NCBI GenBank assembly: GCA_001972305.1
Contig: BDDD01001619.1
Location: 379,627-443,626, forward strand
Length of the DNA stretch: 64,000 nucleotides
DNA from: Cephalotus follicularis
Lineage: Eukaryota > Streptophyta > Magnoliopsida > Oxalidales > Cephalotaceae
Direction: 5' to 3'
Numbering within the stretch: the first letter of the stretch is position 1; the number at the start of each line of letters is the position of its first letter. Both the position numbers and the translations under genes were made by a program. Positions 12,145 through 41,829 of the stretch are shown in pieces. Below the pieces are notes generated by a model, which saw only the letters and a program-made list of their open reading frames with translations, did no database searches and had not been told where the DNA came from.

Positions 12145-15100
12145 GTACTATTCTGAATATGCCGGGATAGGACCCTTGGCAAGTGGAATTAAGACATATG
12201 TGTGGATATTGACCCGTTCTTTTATGTGAATCAGTATGGAAGAACGACGAAGTAGAAGCGTTCGAGGAGAGAGGTCCGGGTCGTGGACTAGGCATACCCA
12301 TTCAAATAGAGCTGCTGAAGAACAAGGAGAAGTTAATGCACCTCAGGAAGTAGAACCTGTTGCTCCTGTGAGAGAGGAACAAAGAGGATTTATGAGGAGA
12401 ATGCATGCCATGATAAGTCAAATGCATGAATTTATGCAAGGGCAACCAGATGAAGATGAACAACCACCTGCTGTTGTACCGCCTAGACGTGCAGCGGAGG
12501 CTTCTGAACAGACATCAATTGCTCGACTAGCCAGACGGGCTGTAGCCGCAAGGAGATCAGTTGACCAACCTTCACGACGAGAGAACCCATTTATTGGATT
12601 CTTGAAGTTAAATCCTCCAGCCTTCACAGGAGTTCCTAATGGTATTTCAGCTGAGAGATGGCTAATGCAAATGGATAAGATTTTTCGAGTTATGGATTGT
12701 TCTGACTCTCAGAAGGTTGTGTTCGCAACGTATATGCTATAAGGTGAAGCGGAACACTGGTGGAAGATGATCGAATCCCAGTGGGAGATATCCAGAACAA
12801 CATATTCTTGGAATATTTTTAAAACAGAGTTTAATGATAGATTCTATCCCGAGGTGGAGATTGATAAGAGAGAAACTGAATTTCTAGGCCTGACACGGGG
12901 AGATATGATTGTGGCCCAGTATGAGGCTAAATTCATCGAGTTATCGAGGATAGCTCCCTACATGGTAAATACTGAGTCAGGGAAAGCTAAGAAGTTCCTT
13001 GGAGGACTACGACCTGACATGCAGGAGAAGTTAATGCCCTTACATGTGCGATCCTTCTTCGAGTTGTCTAACAGGGCACGTGAAGTTGAAGCCTTCGCTC
13101 AGCGATTCCAAAACTTGGAAATTCATACAGGTAATCGGAGACCTGCTCCTTCTGGTGAAAAATCGGGAAAAAGTTCTGGAAGTTGTAATAAATCTCGCAA
13201 GTCCTGTTATCACAGCAGTCCAAGGCAAGGAGAATCTCCCCACAGTGTTGGTAGCCCAACAGGACCTTCGAGGTTGGGAAGGCAATCTCATGGTTCTCAG
13301 CAAAGAAGACCCGGTCGTGATGCACGACGGAGGCATCAGCGGAGGACAGCTTCGCAAGGAGGTTCTTCTAAACCTGCCGATGATGAACAGGAGTCTGTTG
13401 AACCCTGTGTACATTGTGGATGTACCAACCATGTTTCTAATGATTGCTGGTGGAAAGATGGTAGGTGTTGGACTTGTAGAGCTCTAGATCATATATATAC
13501 TCAATGTCCACAGAATCAGTTCAACACAGGAGGTCAAATGCAACAAGGTTCAAACCGATCACAGGGAAGTTTCCAGCAAGGCCGCCCTAGCACCAGTTCA
13601 CGTGGAGATCGTGGCAAACAGCCGATGGGATCCGCACCTATGGTACAAGGGAGAGTATATGCTATGGACCGAAGAGCTGTAGCTGGATCACCCTCAGTGA
13701 TTGGAGGTATGGTTTATGTATCTCAGCTTTTGGCATGAACGTTGATTGATCCAGGCTCATCCCATTCATATGTTGCTTCTCATTTTATAAATCATATGAA
13801 TGTGGAGCCCGAGCCTTTACCTTTTATGATAGAGGTCAGCACACCAGTAGGAGAGTCGGTTACCTCCCGTTGGGTGTGTAGATCTTGTGCCATCAAGATT
13901 TTAGGACATGTTCTTCTGGCAGACCTTATAGTACTGCCGATGGGTGATCTTGACATGATTCTCGGTATGGATTGGCTATCAGAACATTATGCATATGTGG
14001 ATTGTAATAGGAAGGTTGTAACCTTCCATTTGCCAGGACGGTCTCCGTTCTAGTTTATCGGGACGTTAGAGCATCAGCCAGTTTCCATGATATCTGCTTT
14101 TCAGGCTGATAGACTCTTGAGACAGGGTTGTACTGCTTACCTGGTGCATGTTACGGATGACAGTAAATGGACACCGAAGTTGGAAGATGTTCCTATGGTT
14201 TATGAATACCCGGACGTGTTCCCGGAAGAGCTGACATCCTTACCTCCTGAGAGAGATGTGGAGTTTTCTATAGATCTGCTACTAGGAACAACTCCAATAT
14301 CGATAACTCCTTACCGGATGGCCCCTCCTGAGTTAAAGGAATTGAAAGTACAACTACAGGAGTTGTTGGATAAAGATTTTATCAGACCAAGTGTATCCCC
14401 TTGGGGATCACCGGTCTTGTTTGTGAAGAAGAAGGACGGATCATTACGGATGTGTATCGATTACCGCCAATTGAATAAGGTGACAGTTAAGAACAAGTAT
14501 CCACTGCCGCACATCAACGATCTGTTTGATCAACTAAAGGGATCTTCAGTGTTTTCTAAGTTGGATATGAGATCCGGATATCACCAGCTCAGAGTTAGAG
14601 CGGAAGATATTCCCAAGACTGCTTTCAGATCATGATATGGACGCTATGAATTCGTAGTAATGCCTTTCGGGGTAACTAACGCCCCTACAGCATTTATGAG
14701 TTTAATGAACAAGATATTTAGTCCATATCTTGATCAGTTTATAGTGGTGTTCATTGATGACATCTTGATATATTCAAAGTCCATGGAAGAACATGGTGAA
14801 CACCTGCACTTGGCATTGCAGACTCTCAGAGACCATCAGTTGTATGCCAAGTTTAGCGAGTGTGAATTCTGGTTGTCAGAGGTAACGTTCCTTGGTCATG
14901 TTATATCCAGCACAGGATTGTCAGTAGATCCTACAAAGATTGAAGCAGTGAAGAGCTGGAAACGACCAACGAATGTGACAGAAGTTCGAAGCTTTCTCGA
15001 CTTGGCAGGATACTACCGTCGTTTTGTTGAAGGATTTTCAAAGATAGCTACACCTCTGACTAGACTGACACAGAAGAATGTTGCCTTTGTCTTGGATGAT

Positions 15101-16994
15101 GCTTGCGAAGAGAGTTTCCAGGAATTAAAGCATCGCCTAACTACTATGCCAGTCTTAGCCTTACCAGAGGGCAATGAAGGTTTTGTTGTATACAGTGACA
15201 CATCAGGCAGTGGCCTGGGATGTGTCCTTATACATAATGGAAGAGTGATCGCTTACGCCTCAAGGAAATTAAAGCCCCATGAAGAGAACTATCCAACTCA
15301 TGATCTTGAGTTAGCGGCGATAGTGTTTGCTCTGCGTAAATGGAGGCATTACCTATATGGTACCAAGTTCGAGGTGTACACCGATCACAAGAGCCTAAAG
15401 TTCTTGTTCTCACAAAAGGACCTGAATATGAGACAATGAAGATGGATGGAGTTACTCAATGACTATAACTGTGAAATACAATACCATCCAAGCAAAGCTA
15501 ATGTTGTTGCAGACGCCCTCAGTCGTCGATTAGCTTGCCTAACCCTTGCTCATATTCAGACACGTCCATGGTCAATGGACAAGATCTGTGAAGCTTAGAG
15601 CAATGATGGAGACTTACTCAGATTAGCTTTGAGCAAAGATGGAGGTTTGAAGATGGATTTCTCTGTACAAGGTGACGGATTAATCCGATATCAGGGCAGA
15701 ATATGTGTTCCTAATAATAAAGAACTGAAGGATGAACTATTGTCACAAGCACATTGCTCCAGTTTCTCTGTACATCCGGGGAGTACCAAGATGCACCGGG
15801 ATCTAAAGCTGGACTATTGGTGGAACAACATGAAAAGAGAGATAGCAGAGTATGTTGCTTCCTGTTTTACATGCCAACAGGTTAAAGCAGAACACCAAAG
15901 ACCAGCAGGATTGTTGCAACCATTGCCTGTGGCACAGTGGAAATGGGAACACATAATGATGGATTTCGTGACAGGACTGCCCAGAACAAGGAATGGTCGT
16001 GATGCTATATGGGTAATCGTCGATCGCTTTACTAAATCTGCACATTTTCTCACGATCAAGACGAACTTTTCTCTCACACGGCTAGCAAATATGTACATTG
16101 CTGAAATTGTGAGGCTCCATGGAGTACCGATCAATGTGGTGTCTGACAGAGACCTCCATTTTACATCGCAGTTTTGGAGGAAACTGCAAGAAGCTTTCGA
16201 TACTCACCTGAATTTTAGCGCAGCTTTTCATCCCCAGACTGATGGACAGTCTGAAAGGACTATACAGACTCTGGAAGACATGTTACGAGCAAGTGTTTTG
16301 GATTGGCGAGGTAGCTGGGAAGACCACCTACCCTTAGTAGAGTTCTCGTACAACAACAGTTTTCACGCCAGTATTGGTATGGCACCGTTCGAGGCTCTCT
16401 ATGGAAGGAAATGCAGAATCCCGATCTGTTGGTTTGAAGTGGGTGAACAGAGTCTAATAGGACCCAAGCTTGTGCAAGACACAATTGAGAAGGCAAAAGT
16501 TATCTGGGAAAGACTCCGTACAACACAAAGCAGACAGAAAAGTTATGCAGACCACCGCATGCGAGAATTGGATTTCGCTATGGGCGATCATGTATTCCTT
16601 AAAGTCTCTCCGACTAAATGAATTATGAGGTTCAGCAAGAAAGGAAAGTTGACCCCTCGGTTTATAGGACCTTTTGAGATCCTTGAGAGAGTGGGCGCTA
16701 TTGTTTATCGACTTGCCTTACCACCTAGCCTGACGGATGTACACAATGTGTTTCATGTTTCAATATTGCGAAAGTACCATCCCGACCCTTCTCACGTATT
16801 ACAATGGGAGCCATGGGAGTTGAGGACGGATTTGAGTTTCGAAGAGATACCTATCCGGATTCTTGAACGACGAATTAAACAGTTGAGGAATAAAACCATT
16901 CCGTTAGTGAAGGTATTATGGCAATACCACGGAATGGAAGAAGCTACTTGGGAAAGTGAAGATGATATGCAGGCCAAGTACCCCCATTTATTTT

Positions 16995-23367: not shown

Positions 23368-23372
23368 AACAC

Positions 23373-24509
23373 TGTTGGCTTTTGCCACCCCTTTTAAATG
23401 TGTTAAAGAGCTATATTTCGATGATTAACAAACATAAAATACTTGTATGCATATTTTGATATATTACAAACTCATCTACTCACTTGATTTTATGTCCAAA
23501 GTGTTGCAAAGTTTAAAGTTGCAGATACAGGCAAAAACAGCCGATTGCCCATGATGAACAGCCGACTGTTTAGGTTGAGTAGCCGACTGCCTGGTTTGAA
23601 TAGCCGACTGGAATTTCAAATAATCCCAGAATCTAGAATTGCTCTCCATCCAACTGACTGTATCAGGGGTCTAGCCAACTGCCAAGCAAAACAGCCTACT
23701 GCCAAGGATTTCTAGCCGACTGTCAAGAAGTGCACTTTTAGACCAGTAGCTTTTGGGACATCCATTTTTCCCACAACAGCCGACTAAAGCAGGGAAACAG
23801 CCGACTGTTTTGGCAAACAGTCGACTGTCAAGTTCATCCAGCCGACTGCCTTCACCAACGGCTATAATCATAAATGCACACCAACTTCTCCAGCCGACTG
23901 CCAAGAAAATCCAGCCGACTGGATTTGGTCTGAAGTTTAAAAAATAGATCCGTTGGAGCATCTCTATATAAGCAAAAGTGAGGTATCATTACAAATATGA
24001 GATAGCAAGTCAATACACATCTCTTCCAAGCAACTAAAGAGCAATCCTACACCTTTCAAATCAATACCGAAGCTTGCCTCAAGTATTTTAAAGCCTATCT
24101 TAGAGAGCTATTGTTTGTAAGCCTTACTTAGAAATATCTAACCTTTAAGAGGTTATTGTAAACTACACAAAACATCTTTGCAATCTTTTATTGTATAAGG
24201 GGAGTGAACCCTTAGTTGGATTATCACGGGAAGTAATCCCAAATCTTGTAAGGTGTGTTTCTTTGATTTGTGCCCGCAATCCAAAATCAAAGGGTGCTAG
24301 TGGGTTATAGTGGAAACTCAATGAGCTACCTTGGGAAAGTGGACGTAGGCATGAGATTGGCCGAACCACTATAAACCGTGTTTGCATCTCTCTCTAACTC
24401 TATATCTCTTTACGTATTTAATTATTCTTAAATTCTTGTATCCCTATTTCCGTAAGTTTATTTTTCCGCAAATCATATATCTTTAGAAGGTTGCCTTATA
24501 AGTCTTTCA
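23373..24509 (+). repeat. 5' LTR of the SIRE-like element
   Basis: 1,137 bp, tgttggcttttgcc to ataagtctttca. It carries about a dozen cagccgactg-like words at 23,540-23,930, then a TATA box ctctatataagc (about 23,963), then the downstream gtggacgtaggc ... gaaccactataaa module near 24,340-24,380. It is followed by a tRNA-Met-type primer site tcggtatcagag at 24,511. Confidence 0.93.
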
Positions 24510-24564
24510 ATCGGTATCAGAGAGGTTATTTCATTATTCTTAATTGTTAGAAATATAAAGATCC

Positions 24565-26221
24565 ATGGCAACCCAAATGAATCTAAACGTAGGATTAGAA
24601 GGTTCCTCCATAACTAGACCTCCTCTCTTTGACGGAAATAACTATAGTTTTTGGAAAACTAGAATGACAATTTTTCTACAATCCTTAGACTATCAATTAT
24701 GGTACATTATTATAAATGGTCCTAGGATGCCCACAAGAACGATAGAAGGAGTAGTCTCTCTTAAGCCCGAAAATGAATTTAATGATAATGATTTTCGAAT
24801 TCTCCAATTAAATTCTAAAGCTAAACATGTTTTATTTTGTGTTGTTGGTCCAAATGAGTCTAATCGCATCTCTTCATGTGACACGGCTAAAGAAATGTGA
24901 GATTTATTAGAAGTTACCTATGAAGGAACTAATCAAGTAAAGAAATCAAAAATTAGTATGCTTGTTCATGAATACGAATTATTTTTGATGCATGACAATG
25001 AAAGTATTAGTGATATGTTTACTCGCTTTACTACTATTATTAACTCTCTTAAAAATCTTGGCAAATCTTATCCTAACCAAGAACTTGTAAGGAAAATATT
25101 AAGGTGCTTGCCGAAAAGTTGGACTCCTAAGGTGACGGCTATTGAGGAAGCTAAGGATCTCTCAACACTTCCACTTGAACAACTCCTTGGTTCCTTGATA
25201 ACGCATGAAACGACTATGAAAAGTCATGAGCATGTGGAGACCAAAAAGAAGAAATCTATTGCCTGAAGATAGTGAGTGTGATGGTGATGGAGACTTGGTA
25301 CTTATCACCTCTCAATTCAAGAAGTTTCTCAAAATTCAAAAGGGCAAGAAGGCATTCAAAAAGAATTTCCCTCAAGAAGAAGAATCAAGCAAAAGGGAAG
25401 AGCCAACTTGTTATGAATGTAAAAAGCCGGGCCACTTCAAAAGCGAGTGTCCAAATCTTAAAAAGAAAGCACAATTCAAGAAGAAGAATGAATACTCCAA
25501 AAAGAAGAAAGTAATGGTAGCCACATGGGATGATAGCGATCCCTCAACCTCCGAAGAAGAAAGTGATAAAGAGGTTGCAAACATTGCTTTCATGGCAATT
25601 GAGGAGGAGGATGAAGATGAGGTAAATTTTACTTTTGATGAGTTGCAAATTGCATATGAGAACTTGTTTAATGAATATGAAAATGTTTGCTTGAGAAACA
25701 AGTCTCTAAAGAAAAATGCTACTTCAATGTCTAAAGAAATTAAAAATCTAAAAAGTGAAAATAGCAAATATATAAGTGAAATTGAATATCTAAAAAATGA
25801 GAAGAGTTATTAAATGAATGAGATTGATGTTTTAAATGTCTCTTCAAAATTGTCAATTGACTTTATGGAAGAAAATGAGAAGTTAAAACTTGAAATTGAT
25901 GTTTTGAAGAAAACTTTTTCTAAGTTTTCTAATAGTAGTGACATGTTAGATAATCTTCTAGGACTTCAAAGGTGTGTTTTTGACAAAGCCGGTCTCGGCT
26001 ATGAAGAAATGAACTATGTCAAACACTTTAGTAATTTATTTGTTAAGAAAGTAGAGCCCAAAATTTCTTGCAACTATTGTGGTAAACTAGGACATGTTTC
26101 TACTTCATGCTTTCATAGAAAGAATTTTGTTTTTGGTAATTCTAAGAAAGTTTGGGTTCCCAAAGGAACCACTTTAACTAACCCTCAAGGACCCAAATTT
26201 ATTTGGGTACCAAAAGTTTAA
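24565..26221 (+). CDS. SIRE-type gag region (fossil)
   Basis: The coding region starts 55 bases after the 5' LTR. The N-terminal part reads like Copia gag (RPPLFDGNNYSFWKTRM), followed by the retrotransposon gag/UBN2-type domain (LVHEYELFLMHDNESISDMF, LRCLPKSWTPKVTAIEEAK). A zinc knuckle CYECKKPGHFKSEC lies near 25,410-25,455 and a second, CNYCGKLGHVSTSC, near 26,070-26,110. Acidic and coiled-coil-like stretches sit between them, as usual for SIRE/Maximus gag. It would form the virus-like particle and bind RNA. The copy is interrupted in places. Confidence 0.88.
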
Positions 26222-26720
26222 ATTTCCTTACTTTGTAGGTGTGCTCGAAGGAAACGGTGCTATGAAAACTTCAACCTAAATTTGATCAATGAGCACATGA
26301 GTAGTAAGTGTTTTGGTTATGTAAATATCATGATTTTTTGTATGATTGTATGCTTTACGAACTTTGTATGCAATTATGTGTTTTGATGTATTTGAAACAC
26401 TTTTCGAATTCATAACTTGCATCCAAAAATTGAGTTTTAACTCAATTATATCAAAATGCTCAAATATCTAAGTCACTATTAGTTTATAATAGCTGATTTT
26501 AGATTTTCAGATCAAAGGGTAGATCAAAATATGCCTTTACGAGTTCTGCAGATTCCAGCCGACTGGTGTCCTGATCCAGTCAACTGTCTGATATCCAGTC
26601 TATTGTTGACGCGAGGATCAGTTTTAATAACCCGATTTTTTCCTTCTCTCTCTAACTTTCTTCTCTAAACAACTGTCAAAACCCTAAACCCCCTCCAAAA
26701 ATTCGCTCCCACTGATTTCC

Positions 26721-27851
26721 ATGGCATCTAAGAAGAGGAAAAGGTTGGGAACCAAGCCGAGAAGCTCAAACCCAGTGAGCACTTTTGATGACGACCTTTT
26801 TCTCTCCAAGGAAAATGAAGAGAGGTATAATTTCGTCCTAAATTCAGTAAAACTCCATAACGAAAAATGGTTAGATAGAGAGATTATGATTAGCAATATA
26901 GCTTCTATTAGGTCTTGGCTTGAGCATTTAGGTTGGTTTGACTATTTGTGTTCATCTCACCCAATTTACCCTATGTTAGTAAAATTCTTTTATGCTAATC
27001 TTGAAAAAACCACTAGTTGTGTAGCAAAATTCTTTGTTCTTGGCAATGCAGTTGAAATTACCCCTGATTTTATTGCCGAAACTCTAGGAATTCCATGCAC
27101 CGGTATCACTCACTTTAATGACATTGAAAAATCCAATGCTTTGGAAATTTGCTTATAACGGTCCGATATTAATCCACTTATGACTGTTACTAGCAGCCAC
27201 TTGCCCATTGCTACTCGCATACTCTTATTGCTTGTCACTAATACTTTGTTGCCTAGAGAGGGCTCGCATACACTTCCATCCGAGCGAGACCTCAAATTAG
27301 TAGCTTGTATAAAAAATGGGACTCTTGTCAACCTTCCGTATCTCATAGTGAACCACATTTTATCTAGACCTAATCACCTCCTCTGTCCTATGCTTATCAG
27401 TAGAATTCTAGCTTCCCTAAACCTTGATATTAAGGATGAACACAATGTCAAACCTAAAACCAAGCAATTGATAAACAAAGCCGGTTTGAAGAGTTGTAAT
27501 ATCAAGTTTGAAGATGGTTTATGGGTAAAACAACCAGTTGGAGGTAGAGCACCCGTGAGGGAACCAGGTGTTGGTGTTGGTGGAGATGACGCGGAAGAAG
27601 AAGAAGAAGAAGATGACGGGGATCGATTTGAAATGAGGCCAAATGTTGGAGGGAGTAGCAGTGGAGGTCGTAGACCTACCATGGAGTCACTTCAAGCAAG
27701 GATGGATTTAGCCCAAGCCAACATTGAATATATTAGAGGAAGAGTGGATCAAATCTATGATCGCCTCGATTCGCAAGATGCACAAATGGCCCAAATGATC
27801 CAAATGTTTCAAAATGCTTTTCCGCAACAACCACCTCCCGGATCATCTTGA
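26721..27851 (+). CDS. Extra ORF with 'putative plant transposon protein'-like domain (fossil, inside the LTR element)
   Basis: A basic start (ASKKRKRLGTKPRS) is followed by a domain with FLSKENEERYNFVLNSVKL, WLEHLGWFDYL, MLVKFFYANLEKTT and ITPDFIAETLGIP. This pattern is typical of the plant-specific domain often annotated as putative plant transposon protein (Transposase_32-like), seen in retroelement-linked ORFs. The C-terminal part has an acidic run and then a probable coiled coil (ARMDLAQANIEYIRGRVDQI) and a Q/P-rich tail. Its role is unknown. It occupies the place where pol is expected. The region is interrupted at least once. Confidence 0.75.
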
Positions 27852-28144
27852 GCGACATTTCATGCATATCATATTTTTTTGTAGTGTGTGATGAAAATGA
27901 ATTTGTAGTGAACTTGTAGTTTATGTTTTGATGAACTTGTAGTTTTATTGTGAGATGATCTTGAAGTTGTGTAATGAATTTGTACTTTGATTATGTAATG
28001 AAATTTTTTAGTGTGTTTATGAAATGAATGTGTCTTATAATGTGTTCTCCTAAATTTGCCATTGTACATTATTGTCAATGATTAGTATTTCCTTTCCCTA
28101 AATAATTAATCTCTTCATTGGAATTGAATTTGTGTATGCATTCG

Positions 28145-28420
28145 TTAAGGGGGAGCTTTGTTGCTCAAGCACTTTGTTAATGCTTAAACATATGCTTTGA
28201 TTAAGGGGGAGCTTTGTTAAAAAAAATTTGTTGTTTGACAAAAAGGGGGAGAATTGTTTAAGTATGCATTATCCTATATGAAATGTGTTCCTGTGTTGCT
28301 CATTCACTTTGACAAATATTCTAGACTTGACTTATTGGAGGTCAGTTAATATTAAATGTTAAATTTGTCAACATTATGCAAAATTAGTTAGATTTTGTCA
28401 ATCATCAAAAAGGGGGAGAT
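28145..28420 (+). repeat. Repeated polypurine tracts before the 3' LTR
   Basis: Four copies of an aaggggga g(c/a)tttgtt-like word at 28,145-28,162, 28,201-28,218, 28,240-28,257 and 28,407-28,420, the last abutting the 3' LTR. Multiple polypurine tracts are a known trait of SIRE/Maximus elements. The final copy would prime plus-strand synthesis. Confidence 0.8.
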
Positions 28421-29558
28421 TGTTGGTTTTTGCCACCCCTTTTAAATGTGTTAAAGAGCTATATTTCGATGATTAACAAACATAAAATACTTATATGCAT
28501 ATTTTGATATATTACAAACTCATCTACTCACTTGATTTTATGTCCAAAGTATTGCAAAGTTTAAAGTTGCAGATACAGGCAAAAACAGCCGACTACCCAT
28601 GATGAACAGCCGACTGTTTAGGTTGAGTAGCCGACTGCCTGGGTTGAATAGCCGACTGGAAATTCAAAGAATCCCAGAATCTGGAATTGCTCTCCATCCA
28701 GGTGACTGTATCAGGGGTCCAGCCGACTGCCAAGACAAAACAGCTGACTGCCAAGGATTACCAGCCGACTGTCAAGAAGTGCACTTTTAGACCAGTAGCT
28801 TTTGGGACATCCATTTTTCCCACAACAGCCGACTAAAGCAGGGAAACAGCCGACTGTTTTGGCAAACAGTCGACTGTCAAGTTCATCCAGCCGACTGCCT
28901 TCACCAACGGCTATAATCATAAATGCACACCAACTTCTCCAGCCGACTGCCAAGAAAATCCAGCCGACTGGATTTGGTCTGAAGTTTAAAAAATAGATCC
29001 GTTGGAGCATCTCTATATAAGCAAAAGTGAGGTATCATTACAAATATGAGATAGCAAGTCAATACACATTTCTTCCAAGCAACTAAAGAGAAATCCTACA
29101 CCTTTCAAATCAATACTGAAGCTTGCCTCAAGTATTTTAAAGCCTATCTTAGAGAGCTATTGTTTGTAAGCCTTACTTAGCAATATCCAACCTTTAAGAG
29201 GTTATTGTAAACTACACAAAACATCTTTGCAATCTTTTATTATATAAGGGGAGTGAACCCTTAGTAGGATTATCACGGAAAGTAATCCCAAATCTTGTAA
29301 GGTGTTTTTCTTTGATTTGCACCCGCAATCCAAAATCAAAGGGTGCTAGTGGGTTCTAGTGGAAACTCAAGGAGCTACCTTGGGAAAGTGGACGTAAGCA
29401 TGAGATTGGCCGAACCACTATAAACCGTGTTTGCATCTCTCTCTAACTCTATATCTCTTTACGTATTTAATTGTTCTTAAATTCTTGTATCCCTATTTCC
29501 GTAAGTTTATTTTTCCGCAAATCATATATATTTAGAAGGTTGCCTTATAAGTCTGTCA
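28421..29558 (+). repeat. 3' LTR of the SIRE-like element
   Basis: 1,138 bp, collinear with the 5' LTR with only scattered base differences. It has the same cagccgactg cluster (28,587-28,976) directly upstream of ctctatataagc (about 29,012). Ends gtctgtca followed by aacac. Confidence 0.93.
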
Positions 29559-29563
29559 AACAC

Positions 29564-36459: not shown

Positions 36460-36464
36460 ATAAT
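36460..36464. repeat. Target-site duplication ataat (left)
   Basis: ataat abuts the left LTR and is repeated at 41,830-41,834 after the right LTR. It marks the Copia insertion into the LINE. Confidence 0.92.
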
Positions 36465-37111
36465 TGTTGTAAAAACTAGCCTCAAAAACTCTAACAACCT
36501 AATAGCAAAGTTTAATCAAGCAAACACACACAAGACAATAAAGATAAATCGACACAAGATTTACGTAGTTCGATCAATGTGATCTACGTCCACGGGTAGA
36601 GGTGATATGGTTTTTTCACTATGTAAATATGAGATTACAATGAGTTTCTCACAAACCCTTAGCCCTTGTTACACCCAGAAAGACCCACTCTCTAGTGTAA
36701 AATCGACTGACGGTTGTTATATCTCCTGTTGCTCTCCTCACTTTTGACCTAAGGAAACTTCCCTATTTATATAAGTCGCATGACAGCCGACTCTCTACTT
36801 AAGGCAGCCGACTGTCTCCCCAAAATAGTCGACTGTTCCCAAAACCAGCTGACTGTTTTTGTTAAACAAATTTCCCAAGTCGCGTCGATAGTCGGCTGCC
36901 ATCAGACACCAGCTGACTGTCCTGATAATCCAGTCGACTGTCCAACCTTGATAGCCGACTGGATTCTGCAGATTGCAAATAGCTCCAGACTCTGCATTTC
37001 AGTTGGCTGCCCATCCTTGGCAGCTGACTGCCCATCCAATCCAGTCGACTGTCCAATCCTGACAGCCAACTAGATTCTGCAGAATGCAGAAAATTTTAGC
37101 CAAACTCAACA
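36465..37111 (-). repeat. 3' LTR of the Tork-like Copia
   Basis: On the + strand runs tgttgtaaaaac ... caaactcaaca. It contains a cluster of cagccgactg / cagtcgactg words (36,780-37,075) next to a minus-strand TATA box (ttatataaatagg, about 36,763-36,775), and the gtggacgtag...gaac downstream module near 36,560-36,595. Confidence 0.92.
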
Positions 37112-40100: not shown

Positions 40101-41182
40101 CTTCAGCCCCGGAACATGCCAAGCTTCCAAAGTTCTAATCACACCGTCAAACATCTTGATCTGAACTTTCCCACATCTGACAACCTTCAATGCATTGTTG
40201 TCCCCCAACAGAACCTCTCCCTCCTTGACGTCATAGGTGGCGAACCAATCCCTGTTAGGTGTCATGTGAAAAGAACATCCCGAATCAAGAATCCAACTAC
40301 TGGTGTTATTTACCCTAACAGACAAAACTAAATCTGTATCAGCCTCATCCGAACTTTCATGCACTACACCTACATTAGCTTCGACTGTATTCCCTTTGGC
40401 TATTCCATTTCCCTTGTATCTAGGACAATCAACTTTTCAGTGCCCAGTTTCATTACAAATAAAGCATCGAGAATTCTTAGCTCTCGACTTAGACCGTGAC
40501 TTACCCCTTTTACCTGACCCTCTCTCCCGGTTCCTGCCTCTGGCTACCAGACCTTCTGCCTGATTCTCTCCCATATTTTCTGACACCTTTTTCTTCAACT
40601 CCCTAGACTGCATTGCATCCTTAACATCATTTACATCAATGGAGTCTCTACCATATAACATAGTATCCAAAAAGTGATCATATGAGGACGGCAACGAACA
40701 CAGTAAGATCAAGGCTTGATCTTCATCATCAATTTTAATATTTGTATTCTTCAAATCATGAATCACCTTATTAAAATTATCAATATGCTCTTTTACGGAC
40801 ATACCTTCCTTCATTCGAAGAGTATACAGGCGTTGTTTGATATACAACATGTTTGTGAGTGACTTGGTCACGTAGCGACTCTCCAGTTTATTCCATAAAC
40901 CTACCACTGTAGTCTCATCCACAAATTCATGGAGAACGTCATCCTCCAGACACAGCTGAATCGATGTATGTGCCCTGTTTAGGATCCTCTTCTTCTCCGC
41001 CTGAGGCATATCCTCAGGTAAACCTTCTTCACCATCTACTGCCCCACAAACTTCTTGTTGTATCAGTAGTGCCCACATCTTAACACGCCACATACTGAAA
41101 TTGTCTGTTCCATCAAATTTCGCAATATCGAACTTGGTTGACATCTTGAATTCCGAAGCAAGAACCTGTCTCTGATACCACT

Positions 41183-41829
41183 TGTTGTAAAAACTAGCCT
41201 CGAAAACTCTAACAACCTAATAGCAAAGTTTAATCAAGCAAACACACACAAGACAATAAAGATAAATCGACACAAGATTTACGTGGTTCGATCAATGTGA
41301 TTTACGTCCATGGGCAGAGGTGATATGGTTCTTTCACTATGTAAATATGAGATTACAATGAGTTGCTCACAAACTCTTAGCCCTTGTTACACCCAGAAAG
41401 ACCCACTCTCTAGTACAAAATCGACTGACGACTGCTATATCTCCTGTTGCTCTCTTCACTTTTGACCTAAAGAAACTTCCCTATTTATATAAGTCGCGTG
41501 GCAGTCGACTGTCCACTTAAGGCAGCCGACTGTCTCCCCAAAACAGTCGACTATTCCCAAAACCAGTTGACTGTTTTTGTTAAAAGAATTTCCCAAGTCG
41601 CGTCGACAATCGGATGCCATCAGACACCAGCCGACTGTCCTGATAATCCAGTCGACTGTCTAACCTTGACAGCCGATTGGATTCTGCAGATTGCAAACAG
41701 CTCCAGACTCTGCATTTCAGTTGGTTGCCCATCCATAACAGCTATCTGTCCATTTAATCCAGTCAACTGTCCAACCCTGACAACCGACTGAATTCTGTAA
41801 AATACAGAAAATTTTAGCCAAACTCAACA
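41183..41829 (-). repeat. 5' LTR of the Tork-like Copia
   Basis: 647 bp, same ends and motif cluster (41,505-41,800) as the left LTR. Preceded on its inner side by the rc of the tRNA-Met-type primer site (tctctgataccact). Confidence 0.92.

Follow-up and report, generated by a model that had tools for sequence, protein, structure and literature searches.

How can a long terminal repeat (LTR) retrotransposon that encodes none of the enzymes of its own replication give rise to a family, and why, having dispensed with pol, should it hold on to two other open reading frames (ORFs)? These questions are raised by an element at positions 23373-29558, on the plus strand, of a 64,000-nucleotide stretch of the genome of Cephalotus follicularis (contig BDDD01001619.1, positions 379,627 to 443,626 of the forward strand; this whole stretch is called the window in what follows). 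We think it very probable that this is a copy of a non-autonomous family of Sireviruses (Ty1/copia), one that originated by deletion of pol, that borrows its Pol, and that has retained gag and a third ORF for roles that are preferentially exercised in cis.

The element is bounded by a 5' LTR (TGTTGG...TTTCA; 23373-24509, plus strand) and a 3' LTR (28421-29558, plus strand), each adjoining one member of a target site duplication (TSD), AACAC, at 23368-23372 on the left and 29559-29563 on the right (no strand assigned). The LTRs (1137-1138 bases) are 97% identical, with 34 differences (20 transitions, 14 transversions) over 1138 aligned bases. The boundaries given in an earlier note, which was made from the letters of the window alone, are accordingly right. 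LTRs are dated here with a rate of 1.3e-8, and on that basis the Kimura two-parameter (K2P) distance of 0.031 would make this copy about 1.2 million years old. Between the LTRs lies a gag gene (24565-26221, plus strand), whose pieces exceed the Pfam cut-off for Retrotran_gag_2 (E 9.9e-18) and for a CCHC knuckle (zf-CCHC, E 9.1e-6), while DUF4219 (E 5.3e-5) and a second knuckle stay below it; gag is present, as the note had it, though broken in this copy. A spacer of 499 bases (26222-26720, plus strand) takes the place of pol, and is followed by the third ORF (26721-27851, plus strand), which has an acidic stretch, a Q/P-rich end and one premature stop, and which is open in some sibling copies. 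Its two halves, searched apart, match PF20167 (Transposase_32) short of the Pfam cut-off (E 1.4e-7 and 3.9e-8); five open sibling ORFs exceed that cut-off, which bears out the earlier recognition of a domain like that of a "putative plant transposon protein". Neither a Pfam scan of six ORF pieces nor a six-frame motif scan (which together take in less than every short frame) showed a protease, reverse transcriptase (RT), integrase or RNase H within 23373-29558, again in agreement with the note.

Could this layout be a single copy, or the outcome of one rearrangement? The many ORF matches, and the siblings that share the absence of pol, rule that out. The best 40 of 3220 first-look candidates for the DNA of the window ORF (its own place included) all match at 91-100% over nearly the whole ORF. 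A 907-base query running from the end of gag through the spacer to the start of the ORF is spanned end to end, or to within about 10 bases, by 38 of 40 scored places (own included), and the remaining two matches reach bases 878 and 785. Siblings were fetched for 20 of the 39 other ORF places (C868 being taken over the better-ranked C6334): in all 20 the C-terminal half of gag leads through the spacer into the ORF, with no pol between. Both LTRs lie within the fetched stretch in 16 of the 20, with a divergence of 0.025-0.086 (some values coming from partial LTRs), and several siblings carry unrelated insertions elsewhere. Exact 5-bp duplications, each different, flank 11 of the 17 copies tested (the window copy and 16 siblings) and are absent in six; displaced controls yielded 26 in 850. 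The defined multi-copy family without pol that the earlier note had envisaged thus exists, and its TSDs show that it moved by retrotransposition; since it has no pol, we infer that the enzymes were supplied in trans by another element, as had been proposed. Genome-wide probe counts were 643 for the end of gag and 176 for the ORF (each with up to 2 mismatches), 82 for the junction and 196 for the LTR (both exact); on the known siblings these probes recovered 19 of 20, 20 of 20, 14 of 20, and 69% of 32 LTR copies, respectively. Seventy of the first 100 of the 176 ORF-probe sites have the pol-less layout (counting the fetched contigs, and using part of the gag-end list).

Are the two remaining genes maintained, or merely decaying together? 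Twenty-one copies were compared, and variants found in one copy (singletons, mostly reflecting decay after insertion) were set against those found in at least two (inherited through replication); sites with fewer than 12 letters or more than two alleles were dropped, and three copies (L013, L015 and L028) are without cover in the first part of gag. Singletons in the third ORF look neutral: they fall 93, 81 and 87 times on the three codon positions, and 67 of 261 are synonymous. Shared variants fall 28, 22 and 54 times, and 52 of 104 are synonymous (Fisher 1.3e-5). Both parts of gag behave likewise, with 45 of 72 shared against 40 of 139 singleton variants synonymous in 24565-25224 (3.4e-6), and 42 of 91 against 55 of 225 in 25268-26221 (2.5e-4); the singletons of the first part are not quite evenly spread over codon positions (55, 32, 52; p 0.034). 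Wrong-frame, spacer and linker controls show no singleton/shared difference in 12 of 12 cases (p 0.14-1), and the signal persists when variants in at least three copies are used and when L009-L011 are left out. Within the ORF it is clear in the C-terminal part (p 2.3e-4) and weaker (p 0.029) over the first 68 residues at the N-terminus. Gag and the third ORF are both under purifying selection among the pol-less copies, an observation that is new here. Since every copy compared has the pol-less junction, the constraint acted after the loss of pol, unless variants were introduced by recombination with pol-bearing relatives.

Where did the third ORF come from? The earlier note took it to be unrelated to the element, and captured. 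Three families of relatives, each with some or all of its pol read, say otherwise (they are designated B, C and D, the window family being A). For family B the best 40 of 9117 first-look candidates were scored, and the 39 besides the query's own are about 95-96% alike to the query. This family has gag and pol: the protease-integrase part was read in C1973 (L032), and the RT and RNase H end in C87 (L045), which has a part of pol that C1973 is without. It carries RVT_2 and the motif WYLDSGCSRHM, which we take to mark SIRE. The stop of pol is followed by an ORF and then by the 3' LTR, and the ORF of C1973 matches PF20167 at E 1.8e-20. In families C (C4055) and D (C812), whose pol was read in part, an ORF homologous to that of the window likewise lies downstream of pol (the stretches read end short of the 3' LTR), with PF20167 at E 0.0027 in the ORF of C and 1.7e-6 in one piece of the ORF of D, both below the cut-off. 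Searched by tblastn, the window ORF finds D best (E 7e-22 and 3e-10), then B (1.2e-6) and C (1.8e-5); its halves go unmatched at E 0.1 in the 3' pieces of C87 and of C164. Both pieces start inside the ORF, and it is their resemblance to C1973 at the DNA level (86.5% and 82%) that links these copies to the family B ORF.

Quartets of A, B, C and D give AD|BC for the third ORF (ORF3) with bootstrap 1.0, and AD|BC again for gag, with bootstrap 0.85 when A is represented by L011 and 0.57 when it is represented by the window copy. This agreement is as expected of vertical inheritance and, together with the homologous ORF downstream of pol in B, C and D, argues that the ORF is ancestral. As judged from these comparisons, it is the third, "ENV-like" ORF of Sireviruses, and the window family is a pol-deletion derivative, which, having no pol of its own, may be placed in Sirevirus by the homology of its gag to those of families B-D. 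The ENV-like ORF of Sireviruses (eORF-3'F) is recognized by its sense orientation and its position past pol and ahead of the 3' LTR, and this is the arrangement read in family B. "ENV-like" is a positional name only. The protein has no convincing match among solved structures (best E 0.078), and a search of viral contigs for relatives returned none. PF20167 itself is very abundant genome-wide: the best 150 of 13073 first-look candidates were scored, all 150 exceed the Pfam cut-off, and many of the matches have open frames of 250-440 aa.

The spacer retains what look like the edges of the deletion. TTTGTAG, near its start, is common to all five aligned pol-bearing relatives, and a 20-base match of the spacer start, TTTGTAGGTGTGCTYGAAGG, occurs in L030 and L034; further on, 26443-26498 is 77% alike, over 57 bases, to the interval between pol and ORF3 of family D. 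A start that resembles the gag-pol junction and a later stretch that resembles the pol-ORF3 interval indicate that pol was cut out between them. Two side observations belong here. TTTGTAG|G at 26232-26239, just past the gag stop of the window copy, resembles a splice acceptor; TTTGTAG is also found past the gag stop in 15 of 20 siblings (by eye) and in the five pol-bearing relatives, and a spliced message using this site is possible. The region preceding ORF3 in the pol-bearing C87 contains a long low-complexity poly-T stretch, possibly an artefact of assembly.

How might the third ORF be expressed? The U3 region of the 5' LTR holds an array of palindromes of the CAGYCGACTG type (23539-23921, plus strand): AGYCGACTG is matched 13 times at up to one mismatch (shuffle mean 0.08; 0 of 1000 shuffles), many of the matches lying about 21 nt apart, just 5' of a TATA-like box noted by eye (23965-23971, plus strand), and the 3' LTR has the same array at 28587-28970. 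A motif scan finds two more copies in the spacer, upstream of the third ORF (26557-26586, plus strand; 0 of 1000 shuffles), and none at this stringency in the R-U5, gag, ORF or 3' linker of the window element. Among the siblings 13 of 20 have four copies upstream of the ORF, four have three and three have two (a total of 70, where shuffles average 0.78), at about -187, -166, -147 and -126 relative to the ORF start. The motif of family B differs: ATCGACGYCTTT, at up to 2 mismatches, occurs in C1973 12 times in the LTR and six times between pol and ORF3, and nowhere in gag-pol, in ORF3 or beyond. Families C and D have four and three motif copies, respectively, 5' of ORF3, their LTRs lying outside the stretches read. 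The parts of PMC2829016 (Bousios et al.) that deal with such motifs describe 13 Sireviruses with palindromic RM boxes in their LTRs; in the nine that have an ENV gene the boxes also lie upstream of ENV, which is taken there to support an internal ENV promoter. The occurrence of a motif matching the U3 array upstream of the ORF suggests, by the same token, that the third ORF probably has a promoter of its own. Family A shares with the Sireviruses portrayed there the placing of palindromes in the upper half of the LTR, before the TATA box, and upstream of a third ORF, the location of that ORF past the site of pol and ahead of the 3' LTR and, with the ENV- and RM-bearing members, multiple identical polypurine tracts (PPTs): four copies of AAGGGGGAG lie at 28147-28418 (plus strand), the last adjoining the 3' LTR. 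These are its only exact matches in the window, all in the element's 3' linker (mean 0.34 in 100 shuffles, none of which reached at least four). It differs from those Sireviruses in that pol is deleted throughout a multi-copy family, and its motif core is GTCGAC/GCCGAC, against the CGG-CCG signature ascribed there to most RMs.

A second copia element of the window (minus strand; LTRs at 36464-37088 and 41182-41806) has, 5' of a TATA-like box, a palindromic CAGTCGACTG/CAGYCGGCTG array with a frequent unit spacing of about 21 nt. This is the same motif as that of the window family, although such arrays are called Sirevirus-specific in the relevant part of PMC2829016, and it weakens the notion that the motif is specific to elements that bear ORF3. 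Arrays of the CGTCGACGTCTTT / GCATCGACGCTTT type also lie outside the elements studied, at L047:1-200 and L040:5337-5515, and palindromes centred on GTCGAC may be widespread among the LTRs of the genome. The window further contains a Ty3/gypsy element (12743-16618) with gag, RT, RNase H and integrase domains.

The multiplication of the window family might then be pictured as follows. Deletion of pol from a gag-pol-ORF3 ancestor would have left two genes, gag and the ancestral PF20167 ORF, parted by a short spacer that holds an internal promoter with RM boxes; RNA transcribed from the LTR would be packaged in particles made with the element's own Gag; reverse transcription and integration would be carried out by the Pol of a related pol-bearing Sirevirus that recognizes the same primer binding site (PBS) and PPT; and Gag and the ORF3 protein would be kept because each has a preference for the very RNA or DNA by which it is encoded, while Pol can be borrowed. 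The PBS-like stretch directly after the 5' LTR (24510-24522, plus strand) is one base off in three family B copies, and AAAAAGGGGGAGATTGTTG, at the start of the 3' LTR (PPT), is identical in two of these three, so that the Pol of family B could in principle serve.

The autonomous partner with near-identical LTRs that the earlier note had anticipated did not come to light. The first 100 of the 196 exact LTR-probe sites form 23 same-strand pairs within 16 kb, 13 of them 4.6-5.2 kb apart and the others at 1.1-3.4 kb (four), 6.8, 7.6 and 12.7-14.2 kb (four); none of the 23 falls at 7.7-12 kb, the spacing expected of a copy whose pol is the size of family B's. The first 100 exact gag-end sites include 17 with the pol-less layout, and an exact LTR probe lies near 12 of these 17 versus three of the other 83, which may represent either the helper or pol-less copies that have diverged. 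(An initial motif pattern for pol matched just 10 places, and most copies of family B escaped it.) Several results weigh against the interpretation that we prefer. No pol-bearing element with the window LTR was seen, and a genome search with a guessed pattern for the pol-bearing junction gave 0 matches; the 83 gag-end sites, and 30 of 100 ORF-probe sites, were not placed by the probes, and some of them may carry pol; the gag of families B-D differs from that of A at about 40-60% of residues; the motif columns of the spacer are no more conserved than the rest of it (0.88 vs 0.91); and the PF20167 part of the ORF, taken alone, shows no significant selection (15 of 32 vs 36 of 116, p 0.14).

What else might account for this family? 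It could be a plain deletion derivative of the TR-GAG type, in which ORF3, lying between the deletion and the LTR, is simply carried along as a passenger; the signal of selection would then stem from recombination with pol-bearing relatives or from recent loss of pol. A gag-only TR-GAG element does move in Arabidopsis, according to the portion of PMC8704663 devoted to it, most ORF copies of the window family have stops or frameshifts, and the PF20167 part by itself has no significant signal. The synonymous excess, however, appears among shared variants of copies with the same pol-less junction, and in the right frame only, while the neutral-looking singletons are accounted for by decay after insertion; we regard the passenger explanation as rather unlikely. 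A chimera, with gag from one Sirevirus and the 3' half, U3 included, from another, joined by template switching that also lost pol, is suggested by best-match scores: the gag of A is nearer to those of B and C (p-distance about 0.41) than to that of D (0.57-0.59), and its ORF3 is nearest to that of D (0.62-0.64 vs 0.76-0.78). The quartets do not uphold it, since gag and ORF3 yield the same topology, without discordance, and its probability is small. Capture of the third ORF from elsewhere by the window family would draw on a plentiful source, given the 13073 candidates for PF20167 in the genome, and the domain also occurs in an Athila element (in the account of that element in PMC11728184); that three other families have a homologue of the ORF in the corresponding position, after pol, and that the gag and ORF3 quartets agree, rules such a capture out for all practical purposes. 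An older capture, by a Sirevirus ancestor, could have occurred.

Elements that keep gag without pol are not in themselves novel. Like TR-GAG elements, as defined by the rule of Inpactor in the pertinent part of PMC6022998, under which it counts as one, the window family has an LTR pair and gag, and neither RT, integrase nor RNase H; like AT5TE33540, the TR-GAG element treated in PMC8704663, it is mobile by the evidence of its TSDs. The single ORF by which TR-GAG elements are delimited in that section of PMC8704663 is another matter, as the window family has a second conserved ORF (26721-27851) and a motif array upstream of it. Barley RLC_Giselle, as described in the passages of PMC5738225 that concern it, is likewise a copia element without RT or integrase, with a possibly intact gag, and is thought to depend on an autonomous relative, RLC_Inga being the presumed helper; those passages mention no ENV-like ORF, and by that description it is set apart from the window family. 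(The name Inga also appears for one of the Sireviruses with ENV and RM boxes in the corresponding part of PMC2829016.) A sense ORF after pol (eORF-3'F) is reported for 74% of SIRE elements in the section of PMC6317226 on such ORFs, where they fall into 19 groups with little mutual likeness. The sunflower Athila element of PMC11728184, as far as its account there goes, also has PF20167 in an additional ORF, and differs in being Ty3/gypsy. The open literature searched yielded no text naming "putative plant transposon protein" together with retrotransposons, and none describing a Sirevirus family that has lost pol but still has gag and an ENV-like ORF. TR-GAG elements being already known, gag with an ENV-like ORF and without pol is a new variant.

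What is the third protein for? The role of the ENV-like third ORF in plant LTR retrotransposons is described as open in the parts of PMC2829016 and PMC7264820 that take it up. A tentative proposal, which we hold to be a good deal less likely than not, is that the third Sirevirus protein takes part in retrotransposition in cis, or at least with a strong preference for the element that encodes it. It might, for instance, bind the palindromes peculiar to the family, which stand in the LTR as well as ahead of its own gene, and so activate the element or counter its silencing. If this is true, the pol-less family, with its gag, ORF and motif, is a natural complementation experiment. More generally, a family with a constrained gag and third ORF, and without pol, separates what an element must make for itself from what it can borrow. 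It suggests that the third ORF is not a mere accessory to a Pol made by the same element, and it makes the role of that ORF testable: nature has here provided a test of the third protein's purpose.

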